DNA from: Paragemmobacter kunshanensis
Lineage (GTDB): Bacteria; Pseudomonadota; Alphaproteobacteria; Rhodobacterales; Rhodobacteraceae
Direction of reading: 5' to 3'
DNA: 43,018 nucleotides
NCBI RefSeq assembly: GCF_011059185.1
Contig: NZ_JAALFE010000025.1
Span: forward strand, 1-43,018
Positions 26,160 to 41,659 of this stretch are shown piece by piece (position 1 is the first letter of the stretch; each line of letters opens with the position of its first letter). A program made the position numbers and the translations under genes. The notes under the pieces were generated by a model. That model was not told where the DNA came from. It searched no databases and was given only the letters and a program-made list of their open reading frames with translations.

Positions 26160-27989
26160 CTAGAAGCGGCTCACTAGCGCAAGGCGCAGCCCCGAGGCAG
26201 AAAGCCCCCTGTCGCTGCCCGGCTGGAGCGAGCCGTAGACGCTGGCGCTGCCCGACACCGACGCGCCAAGCTTGACCTTGACCCCGAGTTCGAGGCTCGC
26301 CGTCGTGCCGCCCGCGCCCCCCACGGGGCGCGACACGATGGTGTCGGCGGTCGGACCGGCCTTCACCGTCATGTCGCGCCCCGAAAAGTCGTGGTTGAGC
26401 GACAGGGTCGAGAAGGGCCGGAACACCTCGGTCTCGGCACCGTAGATCACCTCGGCATCCAGATTGCCGGTGAAGCCCGCGCTTTCCGCATCGCCGAAAT
26501 GCAGGGCCAGAACGCCGGGCGCTTCGGCATAGCCGTCGATCGACATCTTCTCGTAGCTCACCCCCGCGCTTGCGCGCACCGACCAGTTGCCCAGCGTCCG
26601 CGCTGCTTCCATACCCAGACCCGCCGAATAATACGCCCCGTCGGCGGACCCGAGGCCCCGCGCCTCGGCCAACGCGCCGAGGCGCGCCTTCCGTTCGATC
26701 CGGTCAAAGGTGGTGCGTCCGGCCGAGCCGTGTGCCGTCAGCGCCAGCCCTTCGGACAGCGGGTGCAGCAGGCTGATCTCGAAGAGCGTCGAGCGCGACT
26801 TGGCCGAACCGGATGCCCCCCCGAAGGTGGTGGCACCGCGGAACATCGACAGGCCCGCATCGATCGCCGTGCCGTTCTGGAAGGTGTAGCCCACCCCGAA
26901 GGTCGCCCCGTTGAAGGTCAGGTCCGCCTCGGGCGAGATGGCGTTGCCCCGCGCGTGGCTGGACAGCCCGCCGAAGGGCGCGCCGTAGATCTGCCATCCC
27001 TCGCCACGGTTTGCGGACCGTGCGGCCGACAGGGACTGCGACGCCTGACGGTAGCTGTCCGAGGACTGCAGAAGCAGGCTGCCGATCTGGTCGCCCGCAC
27101 GTAGCTGGGCCAGCGTGTAATCGGCGATCACATCCTGCATGGCCGAGGTATAGTGGCCATCCAGCGTGAAGACGTTCCCGTCATTGGGCAGGGTCTGCGA
27201 TTCCGGCGGGTTGGGGTTGCCCATCTGCTGGTAGCCATCGGTCGTGGCGGTAAAGCCGTAGCGTCCGGGATCGGCGATGATGTCATCGCCCAGCCTGTTC
27301 ATGTCGATGATGAACACGTCGTTCTGCGCTAGACGCGGCCAGAGCGCGGCCTCAGCCAGCAGGGTTTCCTGCCGCAGAAGCGCGATCATCTCCGGCGGGG
27401 TCCCGATGTCGAGCGCGAACTGTTCGGGAATGAGCCCGACTTCGGCCCCGAAGGCCACGATGTTGCGCGCGCCAAGGCCGCGGAGCCGCTCGATCTGGGT
27501 GATGTAGGCATCGGTATAGGACTGCGCGCTGTAGGGCAGCCCGTCGGGCAGGGCGGTCGTGATGTCGTTCCGCGTGAACCACGTGAAGACCAGGTCGTTG
27601 CTGGCAAAGCGGCCACGGTCGGCGGCAAAGAAATCGACCTGCTGGCCGAAGCTGACGCAGCAATCGAAGGTCAGGGCCGTGCCGCCGTTCACCGCATAAT
27701 TCTCGCCACCCGTGGCGAGGATGTCGATGCCGTCCGCGGTGGCGTTGATCCTGAATTCCCGCGCGTGGCGGTTCTGCAGGTTTAAGGCGCGGGCGACGGT
27801 CTCGCTCCACATGCTGCCGGCATTCGTGGGCCGCCGCTGCGGGCCTTGCGAGCCGACATCGGCGTTGCTGTCTCCAAAGACGAACATGTTGGCGACGGGG
27901 TCGGCCTTGGCACCGGAACAGGCCAGCGTCGTGGCCAGAAGAAGGCCGAGGATCCGGCGGGAACGGGCCGCCGTGAAGGGGATGGACAT
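26160..27989 (-). CDS. GDSL/SGNH esterase autotransporter
   Basis: A 609-residue secreted protein. It has an N-terminal signal peptide (RRILGLLLATTLACSGAKA, cut near residue 29), then an SGNH hydrolase: block I FVFGDSNADVG with catalytic Ser at about 41, block III FTWFTRND, and block V LDGHYTSAM with the Asp-His pair. The C-terminal autotransporter beta-barrel of about 270 residues (from about 340) ends LRLALVSRF with the terminal aromatic needed for outer-membrane insertion. Known relatives (EstA type) show the lipase/esterase on the cell surface. It is divergent from the AraC gene. Confidence 0.9.
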   Translation of the reverse strand: MSIPFTAARSRRILGLLLATTLACSGAKADPVANMFVFGDSNADVGSQGPQRRPTNAGSMWSETVARALNLQNRHAREFRINATADGIDILATGGENYAVNGGTALTFDCCVSFGQQVDFFAADRGRFASNDLVFTWFTRNDITTALPDGLPYSAQSYTDAYITQIERLRGLGARNIVAFGAEVGLIPEQFALDIGTPPEMIALLRQETLLAEAALWPRLAQNDVFIIDMNRLGDDIIADPGRYGFTATTDGYQQMGNPNPPESQTLPNDGNVFTLDGHYTSAMQDVIADYTLAQLRAGDQIGSLLLQSSDSYRQASQSLSAARSANRGEGWQIYGAPFGGLSSHARGNAISPEADLTFNGATFGVGYTFQNGTAIDAGLSMFRGATTFGGASGSAKSRSTLFEISLLHPLSEGLALTAHGSAGRTTFDRIERKARLGALAEARGLGSADGAYYSAGLGMEAARTLGNWSVRASAGVSYEKMSIDGYAEAPGVLALHFGDAESAGFTGNLDAEVIYGAETEVFRPFSTLSLNHDFSGRDMTVKAGPTADTIVSRPVGGAGGTTASLELGVKVKLGASVSGSASVYGSLQPGSDRGLSASGLRLALVSRF

Positions 27990-29343: not shown

Positions 29344-30018
29344 GGCCGGCCGGACGGATCACGGGGCGTTGCGCGCCGCGAAAAGAACGGGCCTTTCCGT
29401 CCAAGGTCTGACGAAAAGTTCCGCCGACCAGACGTGGAGTCTCGGGGCGCTGTTCGAAACAGGATGGCGCGCGTGTATCGTTAACACGATAATGCCTCAG
29501 GTATGAGAGGTCATGCATTGCTCATATTCGTTCACCCGGCGCATGTCATGGGTGCGGCCAAGCCGGGGCAAAGCCAGGAGGAGGGCGTGCGCTAGGATGG
29601 ATTGCCTTCTCCGACGTACCTCATGCCGCGACCAATGGACCCCACGACAAAGAACTAAGATACCAGCTTCACATTCCACCCCGGAGAAGGTTCGACGTCA
29701 GACCCATCCTCTCCGCCACTTGCCCCTGCGAAAGCGTTCTCCCGATCCGGCCGCGGCCGGCTTTTCTCGTTGTTTTCGAGGGTTATGCGGGAGGGGCTGT
29801 TGACCTTCCTGCGCCGCGACGTGCCAAAATCGTTCTCTCGACGCCCAATTTCTCTGAAGCTCATGACTGCGCGGATTTGGTGAATAGCTTGTAACTATCA
29901 GAAATTTCATACTTTTCCAGACACCCCACCTGAACACTTCGATGTCAGTGGCGTTCGTGAAAAGGAACCCGGATCGAACATTCAACAGGCGGATCATGGC
30001 CTTGCTGCGCTGGATCAA
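29344..30018. other. Gene-free stretch at the left edge of the defence island
   Basis: About 675 bases without a convincing gene. Composition changes from the high-GC left neighbour to less biased DNA. It contains a 6+6 inverted repeat TATCGT/ACGATA around TAAC (29476-29491) and a palindrome CCGGCCGCGGCCGG (29747-29760) followed by CTTTTC, a possible terminator for the + strand. A minus-strand frame opening with TTG at 30018 lacks family features. The left end of the island is probably here, but I saw no repeat that defines it. Confidence 0.4.
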
Positions 30019-30516
30019 TCAGTGGAAAGAGCCGGCGTCCTCACCTTCTCTCACGTGTGCCGAAGCCTCGTTTTCACCGAGTTCGAGCGTATCACCAGCA
30101 GCAACCAGCCATTCTGCAAGGCGGTCGGCGGCCACGAAGACCTGTTCGGGCTTGCGCAGGGCACACTCCCAAATCGTCGCCACGCGCCAACCCTGATCAA
30201 GCAGCGCTCCGCGAACGACGCTGTCCCGTGCAACGTTGGCCGCGAACTTGGCCCGCCAGAACTCCGAGCGCGTTGCGGGCGTGGTGGCGTAGCGGCATCC
30301 CTCATGCCGATGCCAGAAGCAGCCGTGCACAAAGACGACGGCGCGATACTTCGGCAGAACGAGGTCCGGTCGTCCGTGGACCTTCTTTGAATGAAGTCGG
30401 AAGCGGAAACCGCGCGCGTGCAACGCCCGCCTGAGAGCCAGCTCGGGCTTGGTGTCCTTTCCCCTGATCCCCGACATCATCCGGGAGCGGGTCTTCTGGT
30501 CCACGATGTCGGTCAC
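30019..30516 (-). CDS. vsr: Vsr very-short-patch mismatch endonuclease
   Basis: A 165-residue Vsr-type nuclease. The family blocks are clear: RSRMMSGIRGKDTKPELALR (about residues 10-29), HGRPDLVLPKYRAVVFVHGCFWHRHEGC (about 47-74, with the catalytic Asp and the zinc-binding Cys/His) and a C-terminal VATIWECALR. Vsr nicks next to T in T:G mismatches that arise when 5-methylcytosine deaminates in the site of a companion Dcm enzyme. Its start is a GTG, divergent from the methyltransferase gene 67 bases away, the usual pairing. A role in the defence set is to protect the host from the methylase's mutagenicity. Confidence 0.93.
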   Translation of the reverse strand: MTDIVDQKTRSRMMSGIRGKDTKPELALRRALHARGFRFRLHSKKVHGRPDLVLPKYRAVVFVHGCFWHRHEGCRYATTPATRSEFWRAKFAANVARDSVVRGALLDQGWRVATIWECALRKPEQVFVAADRLAEWLVAAGDTLELGENEASAHVREGEDAGSFH

Positions 30517-30583
30517 ATCCGTCCTGGTTTTCGTCCCTGAAGCTGGTATACACCGGCTGAATGAAATTCATCAGGAGCCTGAT
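30517..30583. promoter_or_regulatory. Divergent vsr/methyltransferase control region
   Basis: The 67-base gap must hold promoters for both genes. It includes the inverted repeat ATGAA-A-TTCAT (30561-30571) directly before the AGGAG (30573-30577) of the methyltransferase and a GTATAC at 30546-30551. C5 methyltransferases often regulate their own transcription through such sites. Promoter boxes cannot be fixed with confidence. Confidence 0.4.
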
Positions 30584-32119
30584 TTGCCTTCCACTTTCGG
30601 CATTGTCGATCTGTTTGCCGGTCCAGGCGGGCTTGGCGAGGGATTTGCGTCCCTTGCCAAGGATGGCCATGCGCCGTTCCGGATCGGCATTTCGGTCGAG
30701 AAGGAGGCGTCGGCCCATCGGACCCTGACGTTGCGTGCGTTCTTGCGTGAATACATGGCGTTTCACGGCACCTTGCCCGATCAGTTCATCAATTTTCATG
30801 CAGGGCTTGAGACCGAACCAGACTGGTCAGCCGTCGACGCTCAGGCGTGGAAGCATGCCGTCGACGAAGCCCGTGCGCTTGAACTTGGAACCGATGTCGC
30901 CGCGTCCGCAATAGATTGCGCCATCGAGAATCTGAAGGCGGGATACGACGATACGATCCTGATCGGCGGCCCCCCTTGCCAGGCCTATTCCCTGGTCGGG
31001 CGCGCTCGGTCCAAGGGCAAGGTCGGCTATGTTCCCGAGGAGGACGCACGGCACTACCTCTTCCGCGAGTACATCCGGGTGCTGGACAAGCTTCGCCCAG
31101 CCGCCTTCGTCATGGAAAACGTCAAGGGCATGCTGTCCTCGACCGTCGAAAGCCGACTGGTCTTCGAGATGCTGATGGAAGACCTGGCTTCCTTGGGCAC
31201 GGGTCACGGCCATCACTACGAGCTTCGGGCCATCCGCCTTGCGGACGGCATGGCCACCCTGCAAGTGGCAACACAGCCATCCGACTTCATCGTGCGTGCC
31301 GAACAATTCGGTGTTCCGCAGCGCCGCCATCGGGTCATCATCGTCGGCATCAGATCGGATTTGGCAACCCGAGCATCCGGCGCACGCATCGCGGTGTCGT
31401 GCACTACCCGCACGGTAGACGAGACCATCGGCAACATGCCGCCTCTGCGCAGCGGCATCAGCCGCGCGTCAGACACCGCCGAGGCATGGAGAAAGGAGGT
31501 CGCAGGGTTCGCCAGACTGCTCGAGAGGATTTCCAATGGCGACGAGGACGGTGCCCTCGCATCGGAATTCCGGGAGATCAGGGAAGTCCTGAAACACGGC
31601 GCCGAAACCCGCCGCTCCTCCTCTAGGCTTCCTGCCGCCTATGGAACTTCGAATGACGTCCTGATGCGCTGGCTGGAGCGTCCCGGCTTGCGCGCGCTGG
31701 CCCAGCACGAAACCAGGGGCCATATGGCCAGTGACCTCGGCCGCTACCTGTTTGCCGCAGTCTTTGGCAAGGTGCGCGGTTACAGCCCCAAGGCGGCCGA
31801 CTTCCCGCTAGCCCTCAGCCCGGATCACCGGAACTGGCACAGCGGCGTCTTCAATGACCGCTTTCGCGTTCAGCTTGCCCATGAGCCTTCAACGACGGTG
31901 ACCAGCCACATCTCGAAGGATGGCCACTATTTCATTCACCCCGACCCGCTGCAGTGCCGCAGTCTGACAGTGCGCGAAGCCGCGCGGTTGCAGACCTTTC
32001 CGGACGACTACCTGTTTCTCGGCAACAGGACTCAGCAATATGTTCAAGTCGGGAATGCGGTGCCGCCCTTTCTCGCACGGCAAATCGCAACCCTCGTGCA
32101 TTCCGCCCTCACGAAGTAA
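30584..32119 (+). CDS. DNA (cytosine-5) methyltransferase
   Basis: A 511-residue C5 methyltransferase. Motif I FGIVDLFAGPGGLGEGF (residues 5-21), motif IV GGPPCQAYSLVGRAR with catalytic Cys at 132, motif VI FVMENVKGML, motif VIII EQFGVPQRRHRVIIVG and motif X YVQVGNAVPPFLARQIA. The target-recognition region (between VIII and X) is about 190 residues; the sequence recognised is unknown. The start is TTG 30584, with AGGAG six bases ahead, so that motif I comes right after the N-terminus; the longer frame from 30449 runs into vsr and is rejected. It is the methylase arm of the defence set, separated from the next gene by a hairpin and 101 bases. Confidence 0.92.
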   Translation: MPSTFGIVDLFAGPGGLGEGFASLAKDGHAPFRIGISVEKEASAHRTLTLRAFLREYMAFHGTLPDQFINFHAGLETEPDWSAVDAQAWKHAVDEARALELGTDVAASAIDCAIENLKAGYDDTILIGGPPCQAYSLVGRARSKGKVGYVPEEDARHYLFREYIRVLDKLRPAAFVMENVKGMLSSTVESRLVFEMLMEDLASLGTGHGHHYELRAIRLADGMATLQVATQPSDFIVRAEQFGVPQRRHRVIIVGIRSDLATRASGARIAVSCTTRTVDETIGNMPPLRSGISRASDTAEAWRKEVAGFARLLERISNGDEDGALASEFREIREVLKHGAETRRSSSRLPAAYGTSNDVLMRWLERPGLRALAQHETRGHMASDLGRYLFAAVFGKVRGYSPKAADFPLALSPDHRNWHSGVFNDRFRVQLAHEPSTTVTSHISKDGHYFIHPDPLQCRSLTVREAARLQTFPDDYLFLGNRTQQYVQVGNAVPPFLARQIATLVHSALTK

Positions 32120-32154
32120 GGCACCCCGACTGTCGGTTGCCCCGCTTTTGTCTT
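32120..32154 (+). terminator. Terminator-like hairpin after the methyltransferase gene
   Basis: GGCA (32120-32123) and CCGA (32126-32129) pair with TCGG (32133-32136) and TGCC (32138-32141) around CTG, with a small internal loop, followed by CCGCTTTTGTCTTT. It begins directly after the methyltransferase stop. The stem is weak, so partial termination (attenuation) is more likely than a full stop. Confidence 0.45.
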
Positions 32155-32185
32155 TCACGTGCCTTGTAACCGCCTATCATCTCAC

Positions 32186-32212
32186 GTCAAACTCGAGTCA
32201 ATCATTTTGACT
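32186..32212. promoter_or_regulatory. Inverted GTCAA repeats in front of the effector operon
   Basis: A palindrome with arms AGTCAA (32196-32201) and TTGACT (32207-32212) around five bases, plus a further GTCAA copy at 32186-32190, one helical turn away. It ends eight bases before the ATPase start, where no good Shine-Dalgarno is present. A weak TTTCAC (32153-32158) / TATCAT (32175-32180) pair with 16 bases between could be its promoter. The element may let a regulator silence the four effector genes independently of the methylase. Confidence 0.5.
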
Positions 32213-32220
32213 AGGTTCGC

Positions 32221-33714
32221 ATGCAAGAGAAAGTCATTTCAAGGTGGGCAGATGCCACTCCTCACGCCGCCGCATTGATCGAGGGGCTGCGGGACATCGG
32301 CTATTCGCTCGAAACTGCAATTTCAGACATTGTCGACAATTCCATCACCGCGGGCGCACAACGGATCGAGATCGCCACGGAGACCTATTCGGACGAGCCC
32401 TATATCGCGATCATCGACGATGGCCTCGGCATGACCGAAGACGAACTTGTCGCGGCGATGCGACCCGGCAGCAGGAACCCGCTGGCCACGCGTGATGAAC
32501 CGGACCTCGGTCGGTTCGGCCTCGGCCTCAAGAGCGCCAGCTTCTCCCAGTGCCGTCGGCTCACGGTCGTGTCCCGGCGTTCCGGGCAGACCAGCGCAGC
32601 AATCTGGGATCTTGATGATGTCGCGGAACGAAACGAATGGGCGGTGCAATTGCCCGATCATTTCGATCTCATCCCCGGCATCGAGAAGCTGGGGCAGCAA
32701 GGTACGCTTGTGCTTTGGCAGAAACTTGACCGACTGACGGGCGGGTACTCGCACAATGCCGCCAAGCGCGCGGAGGTCATCAACCAGAGGATCGCCGAAA
32801 CCGAACGCCACCTGCGCCTCGTGTTTCATCGGTTCATGGAGGACGCCAAACCGCTGCGCATCCTCCTGAACGGGCGACTGCTTCGCCCGCTTGACCCATT
32901 CGCCCGAAAGAACCCCGCGATCATTTCAGACCCGGAAGAAACGCTGACCCTCATCAGAGGCGATGTGGAGATCCAGAGCTTCACGCTTCCCCATCACAAG
33001 CAGATGTCCAAGACGGAATGGGAGGATATCGGTGGGCCGGAAGGTCACCTGAAATCGCAGGGTTTCTATCTCTATCGCGGCAAGCGTCTGATCCTGCACG
33101 GAACCTGGTTCGGACTGTGTCGACAGTCGGAACTGACAAAGCTGTCCCGGGTCAGGATCGACATTCCCAACAGCATGGATGCGGACTGGAAGATCGACGT
33201 CAAGAAGTCCTCGGCGCAGCTTCCGCCGGTCGTTCGCGACCGCCTGAAGAAGGTCATTGAGCGCATCCTCGCCGGTTCAAAGCGCACCTACAGCAAGCGG
33301 GGCCAGAAGCTCGTCGATCATGAACGGCTGCCCATGTGGCACCGGATTCAGGCGGATGGGCAAATACGCTACCGCCCGAACATCGAACATCCGGCGTTTG
33401 CCGATTTCGCCGAAAGCCTGCCCCCGGACCTCCGGCGCGGCTTCTTCAACTGCATTGCCCTGGTCGGGGCGTCATTGCCCATAGAAACGTTGCACGCAGA
33501 CATGGCAGGCACGGCCGAACAGATTGTCCCGGATAAGGTAGACGAAGACACGCTTGCCCAGGCAGTTCAGGCAACTCTCTCCGTTCTTTTGAGCGCGCGA
33601 AAGGACATTAAGGAAATCAAGTCGATGATGAAGGACGTCGATCCGTTCAGATCGGCCTGGGATGATACGGAACGCATCATCGCGGCAACGATCGAGACGA
33701 AGGAAGACACGTGA
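32221..33714 (+). CDS. GHKL (MutL/MORC-like) ATPase
   Basis: A 497-residue protein with an N-terminal GHKL ATPase domain: N-box ETAISDIVDNS (residues 31-41), G1 box DDGLGM (66-71) and G2 box GRFGLGLKSASFSQC (97-111). A second domain at about 220-350 (RLILHGTWFGL; VRIDIPNSMDADWKIDVKKSSAQLP) resembles the S5/transducer part of MutL/MORC proteins. The C-terminal 150 residues are unassigned. ATP-driven dimer closing on DNA is the known mode of this group. Comparative studies have described such ATPases in restriction-like clusters. It overlaps the Z1 gene by four bases. Confidence 0.88.
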   Translation: MQEKVISRWADATPHAAALIEGLRDIGYSLETAISDIVDNSITAGAQRIEIATETYSDEPYIAIIDDGLGMTEDELVAAMRPGSRNPLATRDEPDLGRFGLGLKSASFSQCRRLTVVSRRSGQTSAAIWDLDDVAERNEWAVQLPDHFDLIPGIEKLGQQGTLVLWQKLDRLTGGYSHNAAKRAEVINQRIAETERHLRLVFHRFMEDAKPLRILLNGRLLRPLDPFARKNPAIISDPEETLTLIRGDVEIQSFTLPHHKQMSKTEWEDIGGPEGHLKSQGFYLYRGKRLILHGTWFGLCRQSELTKLSRVRIDIPNSMDADWKIDVKKSSAQLPPVVRDRLKKVIERILAGSKRTYSKRGQKLVDHERLPMWHRIQADGQIRYRPNIEHPAFADFAESLPPDLRRGFFNCIALVGASLPIETLHADMAGTAEQIVPDKVDEDTLAQAVQATLSVLLSARKDIKEIKSMMKDVDPFRSAWDDTERIIAATIETKEDT

Positions 33715-36455
33715 AGCAGATGCTGAGCAGCCTCGAGGGCATGACGTCCATGTACATGGCGTCGCAGCCCGGCCCCCATACGGCCCAGTCGATCCGGGAG
33801 ATCATCGCCCAGCTGCGTGTCATGCCAATGTTCGCGGGCCAGATCGAAGAGGATGACGCAGAGGAACTCGCGCGCCTGATCGAGGAGAAATACGGCATCA
33901 GCATGGGCTTCGGTGCCATTGTCGATGCCGAAGATTTCAGACCCTGGCTGCATGACGCCCGGATCAACGGTGAGATCGACGATTTCTATTGGGGCCGGTA
34001 CCGCAGACTCCTGAACCTGAAGGGAATGCCGAAGTCGGTGATCGACGCGACGGATGAGGTGACGGATCGGGTGCTGGATCGGCTGGGAAATCCCCGCAAC
34101 CTCAGCCCGTGGAGCCGCCGCGGCATGGTCGTGGGCCATGTGCAAAGCGGCAAGACCGCCAATTACACGGGGCTGATCTGCAAGGCGGCTGATGCGGGCT
34201 ATCGCCTGATCGTCGTGATCGCAGGGATCCATAACAACCTGCGGAACCAGACCCAGGCCCGCATAGACGAGGGATTCATCGGCCGCGATACCGGTCGGCT
34301 GGCCCATGCCAACAGGGCGCAACGCCAGAGGATCATCGGCGTCGGCCAGTTCGACCAGCGCGAGTTTCCGGTCTCTCTCACCAACACGCTGCGCGACTTC
34401 AACAAGGCGACGGCCACCACGAACACCAGCCAGATCGGGCAATACAACGTGCCCGTCGTTCTGGTGATCAAAAAGAACTCCAGCACGCTGAAGAACCTGC
34501 TGGAATGGCTGGAGGAACACTCTGCAACCGGGGTTACCAGGATGGTCAGCCAGCCCATGCTGCTGATCGATGACGAGGCCGACAACGCCTCGATCAACAC
34601 CGCCTATGCGCGCGACGAGGTGACCCGGATCAACGGGCAGCTCCGGCAGCTGCTGTCGATGTTCCACCGCAGCTGCTATGTGGGCTACACGGCGACGCCC
34701 TTTGCCAACATCTTCATCGACCCGGATACCGATGATGATGCGCTGAAGCAGGACCTGTTCCCGCGGCACTTCATCATCGGCCTCGACGCGCCATCGAACT
34801 ATTTCGGGGCGCAGAAGGTGTTCCTTGATGCCCGGGACCGGCATGTCCGCCTGATCGACGACAACGAGGACATCCTGCCGATGAAGCACAAGATCGACCA
34901 TCCGGTCGATGTGCTGCCGGAAAGCCTCATCCGTGCCGTGCGCGCCTTCATCGTCGCGCGGGCGATCCGGAATGCCCGGGGCCAGCAGGGGGCCCATGCC
35001 TCGATGCTGATCAACGCCTCACGCTTTACCGATGTCCAGGGGCGGTTGCGGTCCCGGGTGGCGGATGTCGTCGACAGGATACGGGATGCCGTCGCGGTCG
35101 ATGGGGCCAAGGGCAAGGCAGCGCTGCGCAACCCCGAGATTGCGGCCCTGCATGCGGTCTGGGAGGCCGAGTTCACCGGGGCTGAGGGCGCGGACTGGCC
35201 CGCCGTCCAGGCCCGCCTGCACGAGGTTCTGGTTGCCGCGCGGGTTGTCGAGGTCAACGCATCAAAGCGGTCGCAGCCGCTCGACTATGACCAAGGTGGG
35301 GAACATGGCGTGACGGTGATTGCCGTCGGCGGTTTCTCCCTCTCGCGCGGGCTGACGCTGGAAGGGCTGACCATCAGCTACTTCCTGCGGAACTCGATGA
35401 TGTATGACACGCTGATGCAGATGGGCCGTTGGTTCGGCTACCGGCCCGGATACGAGGACCTGTGCCGCGTCTGGATCCCTGCCGATGGTGTGGGCTGGTA
35501 TGCTCATATCCACGAGGCCATGGACGACCTGCAGACCCAGCTGAAGCGCATGGAACTGGCCAAGGCCACGCCCGAGCAGTTCGGTCTCGCCGTTCGCAGC
35601 CACCCGGAATCGCTGATCGTGACGGCGAGGAACAAGATGGGCACGGGGAAGGAATTCCCCATGAAGGTCAGCCTCGAAAAGAAACTCGTCGAAACGACAC
35701 GCATCGTCGCCGAAGAGGGCTTGATGCAGCGCAACTTCGCGGCAGGCGAGGCACTGCTGCAGGACTTGGTCTCAGATGGCCGCTCGTTCGAGAAGCGAAG
35801 CCGCGGTCACCTGGTGAAGGGCGTGGCCGTCGGGCGGATCGACGCTTTCCTGCGGACCTTCCGTACGGATCCGGCGAATGTGCCAGCCGATCTTCTGACG
35901 GACCCCAAGCTGATCCGCGACTACATCGCCGCCCGGGCGGACAGCGAATTGCGGCTGTGGGACGTCTTCATTGCCAGTTCGACCGGAAATGAGTTCGATC
36001 CGGTCGCCTTCGGGCATCTGGATCTCGTGCCATACGGGCGATCGGTCGACCCTCGCGACTTCGCAAAGGGCGTTCTGACGATCAGCGGCACAAGCCGCCG
36101 GGTTGGTTCGGCCGAGGATGAACGCGAAGGGCTGACGGACGAACAGATCGCGGCCGCCGAGAACGCCTTCAGGCGCGACCGTCCTGAAGCAAAACCGAAG
36201 TCCACCATAAACCCCAGTTACTACAGATCGGTAGAGGGACGCCGACCGCTGTTGATCTTGCGGCTCGTGCGGCCGAAGGTCGAAGATTCGGATGGCAATA
36301 CCGTTTTCGGAAAGGACGTCCTCGCCTGGGGCCTTTCCTTCCCGTCCAGCAAGATCGCAGGCGGCACGGTGGAATACATCGTCAACACCATCCGCATGCG
36401 CGAAATGTTCGGCGATGAAGAGATCGAGGAGGAGGCGCGCGGTGATACCGAATGA
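33711..36455 (+). CDS. Z1-domain superfamily-II helicase-like ATPase
   Basis: A 914-residue protein. Walker A GHVQSGKT (142-149), motif II LIDDEADN (Asp287-Asp291), motif III TATP (327-330), and toward the C-terminal half GGFSLSRGLTLEGLTISYF and the motif VI-like QMGRWFGYR (570-578), the Z1-domain signature. The C-terminal 300 residues are not assigned. Z1 ATPases occur next to MutL/MORC-like ATPases and predicted nucleases in restriction-like operons; the combination suggests DNA tracking or remodelling. GTG start overlaps the previous stop; ATG nine bases later is an alternative. Confidence 0.92.
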   Translation: MKQMLSSLEGMTSMYMASQPGPHTAQSIREIIAQLRVMPMFAGQIEEDDAEELARLIEEKYGISMGFGAIVDAEDFRPWLHDARINGEIDDFYWGRYRRLLNLKGMPKSVIDATDEVTDRVLDRLGNPRNLSPWSRRGMVVGHVQSGKTANYTGLICKAADAGYRLIVVIAGIHNNLRNQTQARIDEGFIGRDTGRLAHANRAQRQRIIGVGQFDQREFPVSLTNTLRDFNKATATTNTSQIGQYNVPVVLVIKKNSSTLKNLLEWLEEHSATGVTRMVSQPMLLIDDEADNASINTAYARDEVTRINGQLRQLLSMFHRSCYVGYTATPFANIFIDPDTDDDALKQDLFPRHFIIGLDAPSNYFGAQKVFLDARDRHVRLIDDNEDILPMKHKIDHPVDVLPESLIRAVRAFIVARAIRNARGQQGAHASMLINASRFTDVQGRLRSRVADVVDRIRDAVAVDGAKGKAALRNPEIAALHAVWEAEFTGAEGADWPAVQARLHEVLVAARVVEVNASKRSQPLDYDQGGEHGVTVIAVGGFSLSRGLTLEGLTISYFLRNSMMYDTLMQMGRWFGYRPGYEDLCRVWIPADGVGWYAHIHEAMDDLQTQLKRMELAKATPEQFGLAVRSHPESLIVTARNKMGTGKEFPMKVSLEKKLVETTRIVAEEGLMQRNFAAGEALLQDLVSDGRSFEKRSRGHLVKGVAVGRIDAFLRTFRTDPANVPADLLTDPKLIRDYIAARADSELRLWDVFIASSTGNEFDPVAFGHLDLVPYGRSVDPRDFAKGVLTISGTSRRVGSAEDEREGLTDEQIAAAENAFRRDRPEAKPKSTINPSYYRSVEGRRPLLILRLVRPKVEDSDGNTVFGKDVLAWGLSFPSSKIAGGTVEYIVNTIRMREMFGDEEIEEEARGDTE

Positions 36456-37416
36456 CTCGCCATGGTCCGGCCTCGAGGCAGGGAAGGTGGACACGCGCCG
36501 GGTTTCGGCGTCGGCACGTTGGAACTGGTTCTGGGCAGTGATGCCGCGGGCGGATGTGGCCCTTGTCCTGCAATTGTCCAACCTGCCAAAACCCGCCCCG
36601 GACCTGCCCAAGCTCCGGAACCTCGAGATCCGGTTCCAGACGTTGCCTGGCGGCCCGATCCTCTACATCCGGCTCAAGGACAGCGCCCAGCTTGAACTGT
36701 TCGAGACCCTGTGTCGCGATGTGATGGCGGCGGGCGAGCTTGCAGTGAACGAGGCTGAAGCCCTCGAACGCGCCATCGGCCGCACCTTCCGCTGGCACTA
36801 TCTGCTTCGCGGCGGAAAGCTCGAAGCGCTTTCGGAGGAAGCCCAGAAGGGCCTGATCGGCGAGATCGAAGTCCTGAAGCTGCTGATTTCCACGCTCGGT
36901 GCCAAACCGGCGTTGACCGCGTGGACGGGGCCGTCTGGCGCACCGAAGGATTTCGAGCTGAAGGCCGACTGCATCGAGGTCAAGGCGAGGCGCGGGGCTT
37001 CGCAGCCCTTCGTGAAGATCACCAACGAGTTCCAGCTGGCCGATGTGCCGGAACGGCGGCTGTGGCTTGCGGTGCTGGCCGTCGACAAGGTGCAGCCGCC
37101 ACACGGCCGGACGTTGACCGAGTATGTCTCGGAAGTCACTGAGTTTCTGGAACGAACCGAACCTTCGGCCATAATGGACTGGGATCTGCACCTGGCTGAC
37201 GCGGGTTTCGACATCCTGCACGACTATTCGGCATGGCGCTGGATCGTCTCGGCTCCCGATTTCCATGCCGTGACCGAGGACTTCCCACGGATTGCCGCGC
37301 CCGTGCCCCTGGGGCTGTCTGCGGTTTCCTACGCCATTGCCCTTTCTGCCTGCACGCCATTCCGGACGGATTGGGACACGGTGCAGGAAAACCTGAACGA
37401 AGTAGCCCAGCCATGA
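36442..37416 (+). CDS. DUF4420 PD-(D/E)XK nuclease
   Basis: A 324-residue protein of the DUF4420/PD-(D/E)XK motif family. The nuclease core is visible: Glu in LIGEIEVLKLLI, Asp170 in PKDFELKAD and the E-x-K of CIEVKARRG (Glu179, Lys181), then QLADVPERRLWLAVL. The core is that of a type II-like restriction enzyme, so this is the best candidate for the cutting subunit. The GTG start at 36442 overlaps the Z1 gene by 14 bases, with AGGAGG upstream. The longer frame from 36292 lies in the Z1 gene. Confidence 0.9.
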   Translation: MIPNDSPWSGLEAGKVDTRRVSASARWNWFWAVMPRADVALVLQLSNLPKPAPDLPKLRNLEIRFQTLPGGPILYIRLKDSAQLELFETLCRDVMAAGELAVNEAEALERAIGRTFRWHYLLRGGKLEALSEEAQKGLIGEIEVLKLLISTLGAKPALTAWTGPSGAPKDFELKADCIEVKARRGASQPFVKITNEFQLADVPERRLWLAVLAVDKVQPPHGRTLTEYVSEVTEFLERTEPSAIMDWDLHLADAGFDILHDYSAWRWIVSAPDFHAVTEDFPRIAAPVPLGLSAVSYAIALSACTPFRTDWDTVQENLNEVAQP

Positions 37417-39476
37417 GCGAACTCGACGAGTACCACCAGAACCTGATGGCCGATATCCGCCGCGAAGCGGATGCCAGCGGCATCTTCCCCGTCGAGGCAT
37501 TCTTCGACCGGATGACGGACCGTCTGACCGAAGCCGGCGAACTGGAGGTAGCCGATCGAGCCTACTTCCAGAGCGGCGAAGGCGGTCAGAAACTGAGGAT
37601 CGACGGCTATGCCGGTGATCCGAGAGACAGCGAAGGTGTCCTTGGTTTGATTGTCTGCGATTTCGCCGACAGCGACAATGTGCAGACCTTTGGCAAGGGC
37701 GATGTCCCACCGATCCTGAACCCCCTGATCCGATTTCTGAAGAAGGCGAAGACCGAGGAATTCCGGGATTCCCTCAACGAGGCCAATCCGGCGTTTCAGG
37801 TCTCGGACCTGATCATAACGACATGGGCACAGGTCACGAAGGTCAAGCTGATCCTTGTATCGAATCGCCAGTACATCGGTCGCGATGATGCGGTGAAGCT
37901 GGCAGAAATCGGTGACGTTCCGATTACCTGGTCCGTCTGGGATCTCGCTCGGTTCGAGCGCTTCGATCTGAAGGGAAGCGACGAAATCGAGATCGACCTG
38001 AACGGAGATTTCGGCGGCGCGATACCCGCCCTCAAGGCCTCGCGATCCGGTGACGCCTTGGAAAGCTACCTGATGATCATTCCTGGTTCGCAACTGGCGA
38101 GCATCTACGATCGCTGGGGCGAAAAGCTCCTTCAGGGCAATGTGCGCTCGTTTCTTCAGGCGCGGGCCAAGACGAACAAGGGAATCCAGAACACGATCCG
38201 GAACGAGCCGGAACTGTTCTTCCCCTACAACAACGGCTTGTCCGCGACCGCCAACGCAGTCGCGTGCGAAGAAGGTTCGAATGGCCTCTTCGTCACGTCG
38301 ATCAGCAACCTCCAGATCGTGAACGGTGCCCAGACGACCGGGTCGCTTCATGCCGTGATGAAAACTGCGGCAGAGCAACTGCAGCGGGTCTTCGTGCAGA
38401 TGAAGCTGACGGTGGTCCCGTTCGATCGGGCGGAAGAAATCGTACCGCGGATCTCGGAATATGCGAACACCCAAAACAAGGTGAACGCTGCCGACTTCTT
38501 TGCCAACCATCCGTTCCACGTCCGCATGCAGGATTTCTCGCGGGACGTCATTTTTGCGCGCCGCGAGGGCGAACGTCATGACACCAAATGGTTCTATGAG
38601 CGGGCGCGTGGTCAATACATCAACGCAAGGCCGAAGACGCGGGGGCGAGCCCAGACCGATTTCGATATTCAGTTCCCAAAGCCGCAGCTCTTCAGCAAGA
38701 CAGATCTGGCCAAGTTCGAATTCTCGGCCGCGGGCCACCCCCACATCGTGTCGCGAGGGGCCCAGAAGAACTTCGCCGAATTTGCGAAGGACATCGGCGA
38801 AACCTGGTCAAAGAACGATGCCAAGTTCGACGAGCTTTGGTACAGACGACTGATATCAAAGGCGATCGTGTTTCGCTGGCTCGAGACCGAGATTCCCAAG
38901 CAGCCATGGTACGAAGGCGGCTACCGCGCAAATATCGTCACGTATGCAATGGCCAAGGTGTTTCACGACGCCAACGGCGAGAAACAGGTTCTGGACCTCG
39001 ATGCGATCTGGCGTCGCCAGTCCGTTTCTGACGCATTGAAACAGGCTTTGTTGCTGGCTGCGGGCGAAGCAAATGACGTGATCACCAATCCTCCTGCAGG
39101 CGTGCGCAACATGTCGGAGTGGGCGAAACAGCAGGCGTGCTGGAACGGACTGAAGGGGCGATCACTGGATTATGGTCCAGAATTCGATGGCTGTCTCGTG
39201 CTGGCAGAGAATGCCCGAACCAACGAGCGTGACCAGAGGAAGAAAAAGCGGGAGATTGACGGCATATCCGCTCAGTCTGAAGTCGTGAATCGTGGGGCCG
39301 ATTTCTGGCGGGAAATTCTCGAGCTGGGCATGGCCGACCGGAAACTCACTCCGAAAGACCAGCAGATCTTGCAGGTTTGCGCCTCGATGCCGCGACAGCT
39401 ACCGAGTGAACTACAGTGCAAACATGCCTTGAGTGTCCTTGAACGACTGAGGGAACAAGGGTTGGTATCCGTTTGA
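37413..39476 (+). CDS. AIPR family (abortive-infection phage resistance) protein
   Basis: A 687-residue protein. An N-terminal AIPR_N-like domain (residues about 1-150) has RIDGYAGDPRDSEGVLGLIVCDF, and the AIPR core (about 270-420) has FFPYNNGLSATANAV, ISNLQIVNGAQTTGSL and YANTQNKVNAADFFANHPFH, the hallmark blocks of the family. AIPR proteins include abortive-infection factors of lactococci and are recurrent last genes of restriction-like operons. It overlaps the nuclease by four bases (ATGA) and closes the operon. Mechanism unknown; the core resembles a nucleic-acid-binding/enzymatic module. Confidence 0.92.
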   Translation: MSELDEYHQNLMADIRREADASGIFPVEAFFDRMTDRLTEAGELEVADRAYFQSGEGGQKLRIDGYAGDPRDSEGVLGLIVCDFADSDNVQTFGKGDVPPILNPLIRFLKKAKTEEFRDSLNEANPAFQVSDLIITTWAQVTKVKLILVSNRQYIGRDDAVKLAEIGDVPITWSVWDLARFERFDLKGSDEIEIDLNGDFGGAIPALKASRSGDALESYLMIIPGSQLASIYDRWGEKLLQGNVRSFLQARAKTNKGIQNTIRNEPELFFPYNNGLSATANAVACEEGSNGLFVTSISNLQIVNGAQTTGSLHAVMKTAAEQLQRVFVQMKLTVVPFDRAEEIVPRISEYANTQNKVNAADFFANHPFHVRMQDFSRDVIFARREGERHDTKWFYERARGQYINARPKTRGRAQTDFDIQFPKPQLFSKTDLAKFEFSAAGHPHIVSRGAQKNFAEFAKDIGETWSKNDAKFDELWYRRLISKAIVFRWLETEIPKQPWYEGGYRANIVTYAMAKVFHDANGEKQVLDLDAIWRRQSVSDALKQALLLAAGEANDVITNPPAGVRNMSEWAKQQACWNGLKGRSLDYGPEFDGCLVLAENARTNERDQRKKKREIDGISAQSEVVNRGADFWREILELGMADRKLTPKDQQILQVCASMPRQLPSELQCKHALSVLERLREQGLVSV

Positions 39477-39516: not shown

Positions 39517-39900
39517 TTACCCGATTGCGGATTCCTGAGTCTGCCAGTGTTGCGGGAACGGCTGCAGTAGCTGAGCGAGCGTGGCCCCTGATCCCTGCCT
39601 GCCGTCGAGGATCGCCTCGACGATATCAGGCGCGAGCAACGTCAAACGCAGGACACGGGTCATGTATGAGGGCGCGATCTCCTCGCGCTCAGCCAGATCG
39701 GCTATGGTGGCGAACTCGCCTGAATCGAGCATGCGCTTCCAGCGGAACGCGCGACCCAGCGCCTTTACCAGCGTATTGTCCGGCTTGCGCGTCTGTTCGG
39801 CGCCATCCGGCAGCACCATCTCTTTCCTTCCGCCGCGCTTCACGACGCGGAACGGGACAAGGATGGTGACTGTGTCGGGGAGGGACGTGGCCCGGGTCAT
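39517..39900 (-). CDS. ParB-like HTH protein of the recombinase module
   Basis: A 127-residue basic protein with DNTLVKALGRAFRWKRMLDSGEFATIADLAEREEIAPSYMTRVLRLTLLAPDIVEAILDG (about residues 37-97), a ParB/KorB-like helix-turn-helix segment. Similar small proteins follow serine recombinases in many alphaproteobacterial islands. Function unknown; it may help the recombinase to choose sites. Start ATG at 39900 overlaps the recombinase stop by four bases. Confidence 0.75.
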   Translation of the reverse strand: MTRATSLPDTVTILVPFRVVKRGGRKEMVLPDGAEQTRKPDNTLVKALGRAFRWKRMLDSGEFATIADLAEREEIAPSYMTRVLRLTLLAPDIVEAILDGRQGSGATLAQLLQPFPQHWQTQESAIG

Positions 39901-41200
39901 GCTTCGGCTCCTGTATCTGCGGTGATTTCGCGCGCCAGTGCTGCCAGCCCGTCCGTGCGCAGGCGGATATTCAGCGCGTGCAACCCGATCTCCACTCTCT
40001 CCACCAGCAGCGCGACGATCCGCGCCTGTGCAACCGGGAACAATTCGTCCCACAGCGGGTCCAACCGCGTGAGGGCGTCCCGGGCTTCCTGCTCGCAGAT
40101 GCCGTCTGTGTGGGCCTGTGCGGCCCTCCAGGTGCCCGCCACGATCTCGGGCTGCCGGAACACCGCGCGCAGTTGGTCAATGACGGCCGCCTCGATGTCC
40201 CCGGCCGCCACACGGCCCACCGGGCATGTCCCCGCCCCATGCCGCAAGATGGTCTGGCTGACATAGTAACGATACAGACGCCCGCCCTTGCGCGTGTGGC
40301 TGGGCGAGAAGGCCGCCCCATCCGGCCCGAACAGCAGCCCCTTCAGCAGGGCAGGAGTGTCCGCCCGCGTCTTGGCCGCCCGCTGGCGGGGACTGACCTT
40401 CTGGATGGACTGCACCTTCTCCCAAGTCTCGCGATCCACGATGGCCTCATGCTCACCGGGATAGCGCTTGCCCCTGTGGACCGCCTCCCCGATGTAGACC
40501 GGGTTGTCGACCAGACGGTGGATGAACTTCTTGTCGATGGCCTTGCCGGAAGTGGTGCGCATGCCACGCTCTTCTGCTTCCCGAGCGATGAGCGTCGCGG
40601 ACCCCACCTCCAGAAAGCGCTGATACACCCAGCGCACATGGGCAGCCTGATCCTCATTGATGACCAGCTTGCGGTTCTCCACCCGGTAACCATAGGCCAC
40701 ACCCCCGCCCATCCAGATGCCCTTCGCGCGGGAGGCCGCCACCTTATCCCGAATGCGCTCTGCGGTGACCTCGCGTTCGAATTGTGCAAAGGAGAGCAGG
40801 ATGTTCAGGGTCAAGCGACCCATGGATGTTGTCGTATTGAAGGACTGCGTCACCGACACGAACGTCACGCCGTTCCGGTCGAAGACCTCGACCAGCTTCG
40901 AAAAGTCCATCAGGGACCGGGACAGGCGGTCGATCTTGTAGACGACCACCACATCGACCAGCCCATCCTCGATATCCGCCAGCAGGCGCTTCAAGCCGGG
41001 GCGGTCCAGCGTGCCCCCGCTGATGCCGCCATCATCATAGTGATCCCGCACCAGCACCCATCCCTCGGATCGCTGGCTGGCGACGTAGGCCTCGCAAGCC
41101 TCACGCTGGGCGTGGAGCGAGTTGAACTCCTGCTCCAACCCTTCCTCGGAGGATTTCCGGGTATAGACGGCGCAGCGGAGCTTCTGGACGATGCCTTCGG

Positions 41201-41204
<4 letters not shown>
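39897..41204 (-). CDS. Large serine recombinase
   Basis: A 435-residue serine recombinase: the catalytic region YTRKSSEEGL with Ser at residue 18, ISGGTLDRPGLKRLLADIE, VVVVYKIDRLSRSLMDF and ASFAQFERE-like LLSFAQFEREVTAERI of the resolvase domain (about 9-150), then a recombinase domain (GGVAYGYRVENRKLVINEDQA; VDNPVYIGEAVHRGKRYPGEHEAIV). The zinc-ribbon region lacks the usual cysteine pairs (LLFGPDGAAF, SHTRKGGRLYRYYVS), so it differs from typical large recombinases. It probably catalyses integration and excision of the island. Translationally coupled on both sides. Confidence 0.92.

Positions 41205-41655
<451 letters not shown>

Positions 41656-41659
<4 letters not shown>

Follow-up and report, generated by a model that had tools for sequence, protein, structure and literature searches.

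A divergent, MzaA-less Mza relative in Paragemmobacter kunshanensis and its exchangeable methyltransferase-Vsr cassette

The stretch of Paragemmobacter kunshanensis DNA analysed here (the window, 43,018 nucleotides) corresponds to bases 1-43018 of contig 36 in a genome of 4.46 Mb, and six adjoining genes span its positions 30019-39476. Sequence comparison identifies this locus as a divergent, MzaA-less relative of the Mza system with a C5-cytosine methyltransferase (MTase) and a Vsr mismatch endonuclease, a kind already described, and divides the six genes into two units: a four-gene core and a separate, exchangeable cassette of Vsr plus MTase. All six reading frames are intact, without interruption, and all six proteins have Pfam matches, in agreement with the families named in an earlier note on this DNA:

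30019..30516, minus strand: Vsr mismatch endonuclease, cassette gene 1 (PF03852, 1.6e-32; TIGR00632, 137 bits, cut-off 97.85)
30581..32119, plus strand: C5-cytosine MTase, cassette gene 2 (PF00145, 1.4e-43; TIGR00675, 134 bits, cut-off 100.65)
32221..33714, plus strand: GHKL ATPase of MutL/MORC type, MzaB-like (HATPase_c_3, 1.1e-32; PADLOC MzaB, 3.1e-81)
33711..36455, plus strand: Z1-domain superfamily 2 (SF2) ATPase, MzaC-like (PF10593, 1.6e-78; PADLOC MzaC, 1.8e-135)
36442..37416, plus strand: DUF4420 PD-(D/E)XK protein, here PD, MzaD-like (PF14390, 3e-73; PADLOC MzaD, 1.4e-14)
37413..39476, plus strand: AIPR protein, MzaE-like (PF10592, 7.1e-96; AIPR_N, 9.5e-33; PADLOC MzaE, 1.5e-65)

The start/stop overlaps claimed for the last four genes are there: 4 bases between GHKL and Z1 (GTGA at 33711), 14 between Z1 and DUF4420 if the latter starts with the GTG at 36442, and 4 between DUF4420 and AIPR (ATGA at 37413). 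Overlaps are limited to these four genes, with a gap of 101 bases between MTase and GHKL, and the Vsr gene is divergent from the remaining five and therefore outside any shared message. Of the linked six-gene set proposed earlier, the adjacency thus stands, and the single message does not. Where the MTase begins is uncertain: its open frame reaches back to 30449, within vsr, and a TTG at about 30581 is the better candidate. Counted from there, the catalytic Cys would be C133.

Separate divergence of core and cassette

The division rests on pairwise identities among 84 non-redundant loci that carry the complete six-gene set. Within the core, the four genes correlate with one another at r 0.89-0.96 and Vsr with the MTase at 0.68, while either cassette gene correlates with any core gene at 0.33-0.39. 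In partial Mantel tests the Vsr-MTase association persists given the core (0.62, p 0.001), and the association of the MTase with GHKL, Z1, PD and AIPR, each given the other core genes, is 0.05, 0.02, -0.13 and 0.10 (p 0.17, 0.39, 0.99 and 0.11). The branching patterns point the same way. In the Z1 tree nine MzaA-bearing rows form one side of a starred branch, a grouping rejected in the MTase tree by the approximately unbiased (AU) test (p-AU 5e-78), and joining the window clade with five MzaA-bearing loci is rejected in the Z1 tree (p-AU 1e-41). As far as two quick trees with some long branches allow, and with groups picked after the identities had been seen, these tests reject a single shared history of core and cassette. 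The earlier view of the six genes as one unit is hence given up: Vsr and MTase diverge apart from the core, and the cassette is swapped between loci.

Individual pairs illustrate this. Among 103 loci, the recognition domains of the MTases agree at 0.65 or more in 132 pairs, of which 75 have core identity of 0.5 or less, and the cores agree at 0.8 or more in 69 pairs, of which 10 have recognition domains at 0.5 or less; pairs share loci, near-copies are included, and all ten involve L167, whose MTase lies 3.0 kb from its core, or L044. The MTases of the MzaA-bearing L031, L034, L035, L036, L038 and L039 are 82-87% identical to that of the window outside the recognition domain and 67-72% within it, with Vsr at 73-80% and cores at only 28-29%.

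A search for a specificity subunit, comparing 40-residue core segments with the MTase recognition domain over 689 pairs, gave nothing convincing. The best segment, GHKL 361-400, reached r 0.40, falling to 0.16 when the rest of the MTase was allowed for, and the top partial r among the 28 segments listed was 0.23 (PD 121-160). Between the window and L097, from Paracoccus aminovorans, and L081, identity drops abruptly from about 90-100% to about 40-60% at approximately residues 640-880 of Z1, and likewise at the AIPR C-terminus. In Z1 this drop in the C-terminal third between otherwise close loci reads as a mosaic replacement; its reading as a swapped recognition domain (window against L097) was dropped, as it does not track the MTase domain.

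The gene set was surveyed around Z1, which 31 of 292 genomes of the order contain (30 above cut-off), as do 26 of 398 in a phylum sample (25 above). The 129 loci examined comprise 29 of the 31 order hits (leaving out the window's own and one under cut-off), the best 80 listed from a scan of genome contigs, and 20 of the 26 phylum hits (leaving out four that were already among the loci or the order sample, plus two more); close relatives are over-represented in the contig set, and a few genomes were sampled twice (L048 and L076 being one and the same locus). Removal of 11 loci with short or weak Z1 (<600 bits) left 118, and removal of 40 lacking 5 kb upstream or 6.4 kb downstream of Z1 left 78. 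Counted within 9 kb of Z1, by hidden Markov models (HMMs) trained on these same loci, the MTase is present in all 78 long-form loci, PD in 77, GHKL and AIPR in 74 each and Vsr in 66. The earlier note had asked whether homologous clusters lack core genes as a rule; instead all four are kept in 72 of the 78, so that the fixed four-gene core is upheld, and all six genes occur in 62.

In 71 of the 78 loci no more than 1.5 kb separates the MTase from a core gene, and in 61 of the 66 with Vsr that gene is at most 300 bases from the MTase. The MTase may stand up- or downstream of the core on either strand, and its side and strand together with the position of Vsr make 14 combinations. By comparison, a C5-MTase of any sort is present in 58 of 101 genomes of the order. 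The window's MTase type (E <= 1e-60) occurs in 32 of the 292 order genomes, including 22 of the 24 with long-form Z1, against 2.6 expected (p 2e-23); this is co-occurrence within genomes, and in G014, G229 and G230 the MTase and Z1 are on separate contigs, with Z1 near a contig end.

Five loci (L051, L052, L053, L175 and L176) have Z1 and PD with the MTase about 3.6 kb away, Vsr in four of the five and no match to GHKL or AIPR, a variant resembling the Type I of Miller (see below). In 369 genomes of the class of G524, MzaC was found above the NCBI cut-off in none and matched at E 1e-30 in eight. Z1 searches elsewhere yielded 48 plasmid records and seven phage records, the phage matches being unannotated faecal records.

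Cassette exchange at the DNA level and other partners

The exchange is visible in the DNA itself, both at the limits of the cassette and in the island that carries the locus:

30106..32099, no strand: Vsr+MTase exchange unit, outer limits of DNA similarity in six loci with diverged cores
29703..29894, no strand: shared left flank of the carrier island, similar in L196, L044, L212, L058, L053 and L068
39517..41659, minus strand: right flank of the island, with a small open reading frame (39517-40053), a serine recombinase (39897-41204) and DUF2924 (41201-41659), shared with L068 and L044

The six loci, five of them MzaA-bearing (L031, L034, L036, L038, L039 and L042), match the window at 74-78% from 30106-30150 to 32085-32099, and beyond the cassette show short Z1 matches only, plus one 67-base GHKL match in L031. 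L062, from Pusillimonas minor, presents the reverse case, its core DNA matching the window (32248-35669 and 36318-39175) and its cassette not; compared with the window clade, identity is 66-84% for its core genes and 27-28% for its MTase. In L196, a Shinella plasmid, and in L044, the left flank, cassette and right flank match the window, and the core between them is diverged (29-37% identical to the window's in L196, about 51% in L044) and inverted. The nearest relative, L068 from Rhodobacteraceae bacterium DSL-40, has AIPR 98% and Z1 90% identical to the window, and its MTase groups in the tree with the L031 type (99, starred); since that MTase is 90% identical to the window's outside the recognition domain, the change may have occurred within the gene. 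Judged from these alignments, the cassette is retained yet exchanged, and no account of such exchange was found in the open-access literature searched.

On the island flanks, the small reading frame has a weak ParB-like match under cut-off, and window 39554-39974 is also similar in L196. The serine recombinase, DUF2924 and the small reading frame, or parts of them, flank the system in L068, L058, L044 and L196, with a common left edge at about 29703-29711. To the left of the island, 26160-27989 (minus strand) encodes a GDSL lipase fused to an autotransporter beta-domain. On another contig of the host genome (G000:C65:500-1778) there is a second C5-MTase with an adjacent Vsr match.

Ten of the 32 order genomes with the window's MTase type have no long-form Z1. 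One is a remnant island (L058); in the other nine neighbourhoods, part of whose genes were scanned, several unrelated partners appear. SspF-SspG-SspH-like genes lie beside the MTase in L206 (78%) and L210 (51%), and the DNA similarity of L206 to the window is the cassette alone (30140-32090). DISARM drmA/drmB adjoin an MTase related to that of the window (80% over 390 residues) in L211, near a contig edge, and a DruE-like protein adjoins the MTase of L212. L208 and L214 (MTase 46% and 41%) have a GHKL-domain protein that also weakly matches a Type II restriction enzyme, L209 (MTase 48%) a PDC-M33A neighbour, and L207 (MTase 50%) TIR-NLR-like and IetA-like matches; in L213 (MTase 83% over 253, contig edge) no recognised partner was found among the scanned neighbours. 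Vsr was found in six of the nine. In L206:671-11322 and L210:854-11322 the SspF-SspG-SspH-like genes are accompanied by a convergent C5-MTase and Vsr. At L212:8861-10893 the first 242 residues of the MTase share 94% identity with the window's enzyme, after which the frame is broken, and Vsr is 93% identical.

It is possible, though doubtful, that the C5-MTase+Vsr cassette serves as an all-purpose label of self and passes as one piece among unrelated, motor-driven immune systems, all of them reading generic 5-methylcytosine (5mC): Mza with or without MzaA, DISARM, SspFGH-like and possibly Druantia-like systems. The cassette could then be traded because every such system would read generic 5mC status and no private site. 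In the alignments the trade itself shows in swapped cassettes at whose edges DNA similarity ends sharply, and in the replaced and inverted core inside one island (L196, L044).

Relation to Mza and other known systems

Mza (MzaABCDE) reportedly goes back to Gao et al. in 2020. The window has homologues of MzaB, MzaC, MzaD and MzaE in the same order (PADLOC), as GHKL, Z1, PD-(D/E)XK and AIPR proteins. It differs in that these four fall far under the NCBIfam cut-offs (326/850, 539/1500, 94/420 and 292/1050 bits) and in having no MzaA sigma factor: the MzaA of L191 gave no match in the window at E 1e-5, and of four sigma-like matches in the genome none was above cut-off and none lay within the window. 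L191 is nearly canonical (MzaA-E at 585/800, 806/850, 1325/1500, 354/420 and 942/1050 bits) and has a C5-MTase and Vsr beside mzaE, and L165 (MzaC 1137 bits) also carries both. The MzaA of L191 (L191:9612-11891) is a sigma-70 factor with N-terminal ankyrin repeats, and MzaA homologues occur in 12 surveyed stretches, including L031-L039, L163, L165 and L167. The Mza locus of Thalassospira, L200, has a different small methylase and a restriction endonuclease; Vsr was not found there.

Mza is termed validated by Miller 2022 (PMC9523054), whose putative system Type II comprises Z1, PD-(D/E)XK, a cytosine methyltransferase and AIPR with an associated MORC-type protein. The window has all of these together, so that the methylase-linked predicted defence set recognised earlier matches Type II as well as being an Mza relative by PADLOC; Vsr, in contrast, is unnamed for Type II in that paper. 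The paper prints DUF4220 for Type II, the window protein being DUF4420, and its Type II section reports no anti-phage activity. In the parts available of Iyer, Abhiman and Aravind 2008 (PMC2292703), restriction neighbourhoods of MORC/paraMORC type with mobile-element-like behaviour were predicted, containing a GHKL ATPase, SFII helicase, restriction-fold nuclease, cytosine methylase, Vsr and AIPR; they differ in being a prediction only, and exchange of the methylase-Vsr unit is not described in those parts.

CglI and NgoAVII, in excerpts of PMC5737866 and PMC4267653, are three-gene ATP-dependent restriction systems with site-specific cutting shown. They share with the window an SF2 + Z1 ATPase plus a C5-MTase, but their nuclease is of the PLD-B3 kind, for which the window's six proteins have no Pfam match (E 0.01). 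In the same excerpts the Z1-domain proteins N.CglI and N.NgoAVII are double-stranded-DNA-dependent ATPases needed for cutting, and CglI translocates. The remark in the earlier note that no mechanism is demonstrated for this exact set needs amending to that extent, the Z1 ATPases of these two systems having one. DISARM is similar in that, in the model proposed in the available part of PMC9142583, a helicase core is restrained by 5mC, and in the neighbourhood of L211 described above; it differs in that no DrmA or DrmB match was found among the window's six genes (for the MTase, among the best 25 of 55 matches), although the MTase does match DrmMII, its top PADLOC model (2.3e-80).

Predicted mechanism and its alternatives

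The core retains the motifs expected of its families in 101 aligned loci with full core and MTase. In DUF4420, E141, D170, E179-x-K181 and Q198 are invariant in all 101; the SF2 motifs of Z1 (Walker A near 142-149, Walker B at 287-291) and, in GHKL, D66, G68, G70 and R98-G102 are at least 95% conserved. Alignments of Z1 also show G142, Q145-T149, D287-E289, D291, R573 and R578 as invariant. By comparison with MutL, the residue at the position of the GHKL catalytic Glu appears to be Asp (D36). The AlphaFold2 (AF2) model of Z1 (mean pLDDT 82.5) has HsdR of EcoR124I as its top solved-structure match (E 3.9e-8), and its first 15 matches include RapA, Chd1, Rad54 and LlaBIII in a list that also holds RNA helicases and MDA5; with TM-scores by query length of only 0.2-0.3, this fold search supports a predicted SF2 motor core and nothing beyond. 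For the AIPR model (pLDDT 85.7, pTM 0.53) the fold search gave no significant match (lowest E 0.31), and weak resemblances to McrC, ParB-N and MspJI were set aside. Sequence searches of solved structures with Z1, AIPR and DUF4420 gave matches at chance level; the GHKL protein matched MutL (5e-6) and MORC2 (0.0023) among PDB sequences.

We tentatively put forward a four-protein, ATP-driven anti-phage nuclease system with a sequence-blind core, restrained by 5mC from an exchangeable MTase-Vsr cassette; this is the reading to which we lean, short of firm confidence. The MTase would lay down 5mC, which would mark self and restrain the core. We infer that a GHKL clamp, the Z1 DNA motor, the PD-(D/E)XK nuclease and AIPR, in a role of its own, would form a complex that translocates on DNA and cuts it, acting on phage on sensing that 5mC, or a widely shared mark, is missing, and with no private recognition sequence matched to the MTase. 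Vsr repairs T:G mismatches caused by 5mC, and here would mend those arising from the cassette's own methylation. The exchange data agree with a core that depends on the mark but is not tied to one particular MTase. There is a parallel in DISARM: according to the available part of PMC9142583, 5mC slows its core ATPase, which is proposed to work independently of any particular sequence.

Several points weigh against this. A residual coupling of Vsr to the core remains given the MTase (0.14, p 0.01), and AIPR 521-600 tracks several MTase segments (r up to 0.41). The identity correlations become saturated where identity is low, the partial Mantel tests are approximate, and lack of covariation is in any case poor evidence that recognition is lacking. 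A conserved recognition domain is common to 83 of the 103 MTases, so all cores may read one common target. For CglI and NgoAVII, the excerpts cited for them place the cut at a set distance from a single sequence, and the available part of PMC9142583 itself notes DISARM protection against modified phage. Finally, in six E. coli mzaABCDE loci (8-9 kb each side; 55 genomes matched; four also by HMM) neither MTase nor Vsr was found nearby in any. E. coli has its own chromosomal dcm-vsr pair, which may stand in for a nearby cassette, and the result is therefore not decisive. In three of these loci (L198, L199 and L202) mzaB is split by IS421 at sites close but not identical.

The chief rival to a sequence-blind, 5mC-restrained core is ordinary matched-specificity, ATP-dependent restriction-modification as in CglI, with the core reading one conserved short site (e.g., GCNGC-like) that most or all of the exchangeable MTases protect. 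We judge it unlikely, though likelier than the other rivals. Besides the shared recognition domain, CglI and NgoAVII use GCSGC MTases and cut at GCCGC (excerpts of PMC5737866 and PMC4267653), and the available part of PMC10687267 gives modified GCWGC/GCSGC sites in four Listeria monocytogenes strains with a methyltransferase-encoding mza system, which suggests that such MTases can act genome-wide. On the other hand, no core segment clearly tracks the recognition domain, and 20 of the 103 MTase recognition regions, that of L062 included, do not align with the window's (identity <=0.16); these 20 are not decisive because unrelated recognition domains can read the same site.

In an alternative scenario, which we consider improbable, the locus is an abortive-infection module in which AIPR or the complex kills the infected cell, the cassette being a bystander or a shield against neighbouring restriction enzymes only. 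The name AIPR itself refers to abortive infection, its gene is matched by the AbiU model (1.3e-19), and the six E. coli loci do without a nearby MTase; but the MTase in all 78 long-form loci, its excess among Z1 genomes (22 of 24) and the invariant PD-(D/E)XK site argue otherwise. Even less probable is that the MTase is a target-recognition subunit, the core docking on any C5-MTase through a conserved surface to find sites. Modification subunits find sites in Type I and ISP enzymes, top matches of the Z1 model include Type I and ISP motors, and the MTase is ever present and exchangeable; yet the whole MTase does not follow the core, L062 joins a close core to its distant MTase, and the same MTase type adjoins unrelated effectors. 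That Vsr+MTase is an independent selfish or repair cassette merely sharing a defence hotspot is highly improbable, for although it adjoins several unrelated effectors and stands on either side of the core, every one of the 78 core loci has an MTase, against only 58 of 101 genomes of the order with any C5-MTase.

The locus itself is ordinary, and the cassette exchange is the part of interest. No account of how Mza discriminates self from phage was found in the parts available of the literature searched. If the 5mC-restrained reading is right and the mark of self comes from the cassette, Mza would work on the same principle as DISARM, and an uncontrolled factor would be hidden in assays of Mza carried out in dcm-plus E. 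coli. The pairs of loci in which like cores go with unlike MTases, or like MTases with unlike cores, amount to natural experiments.

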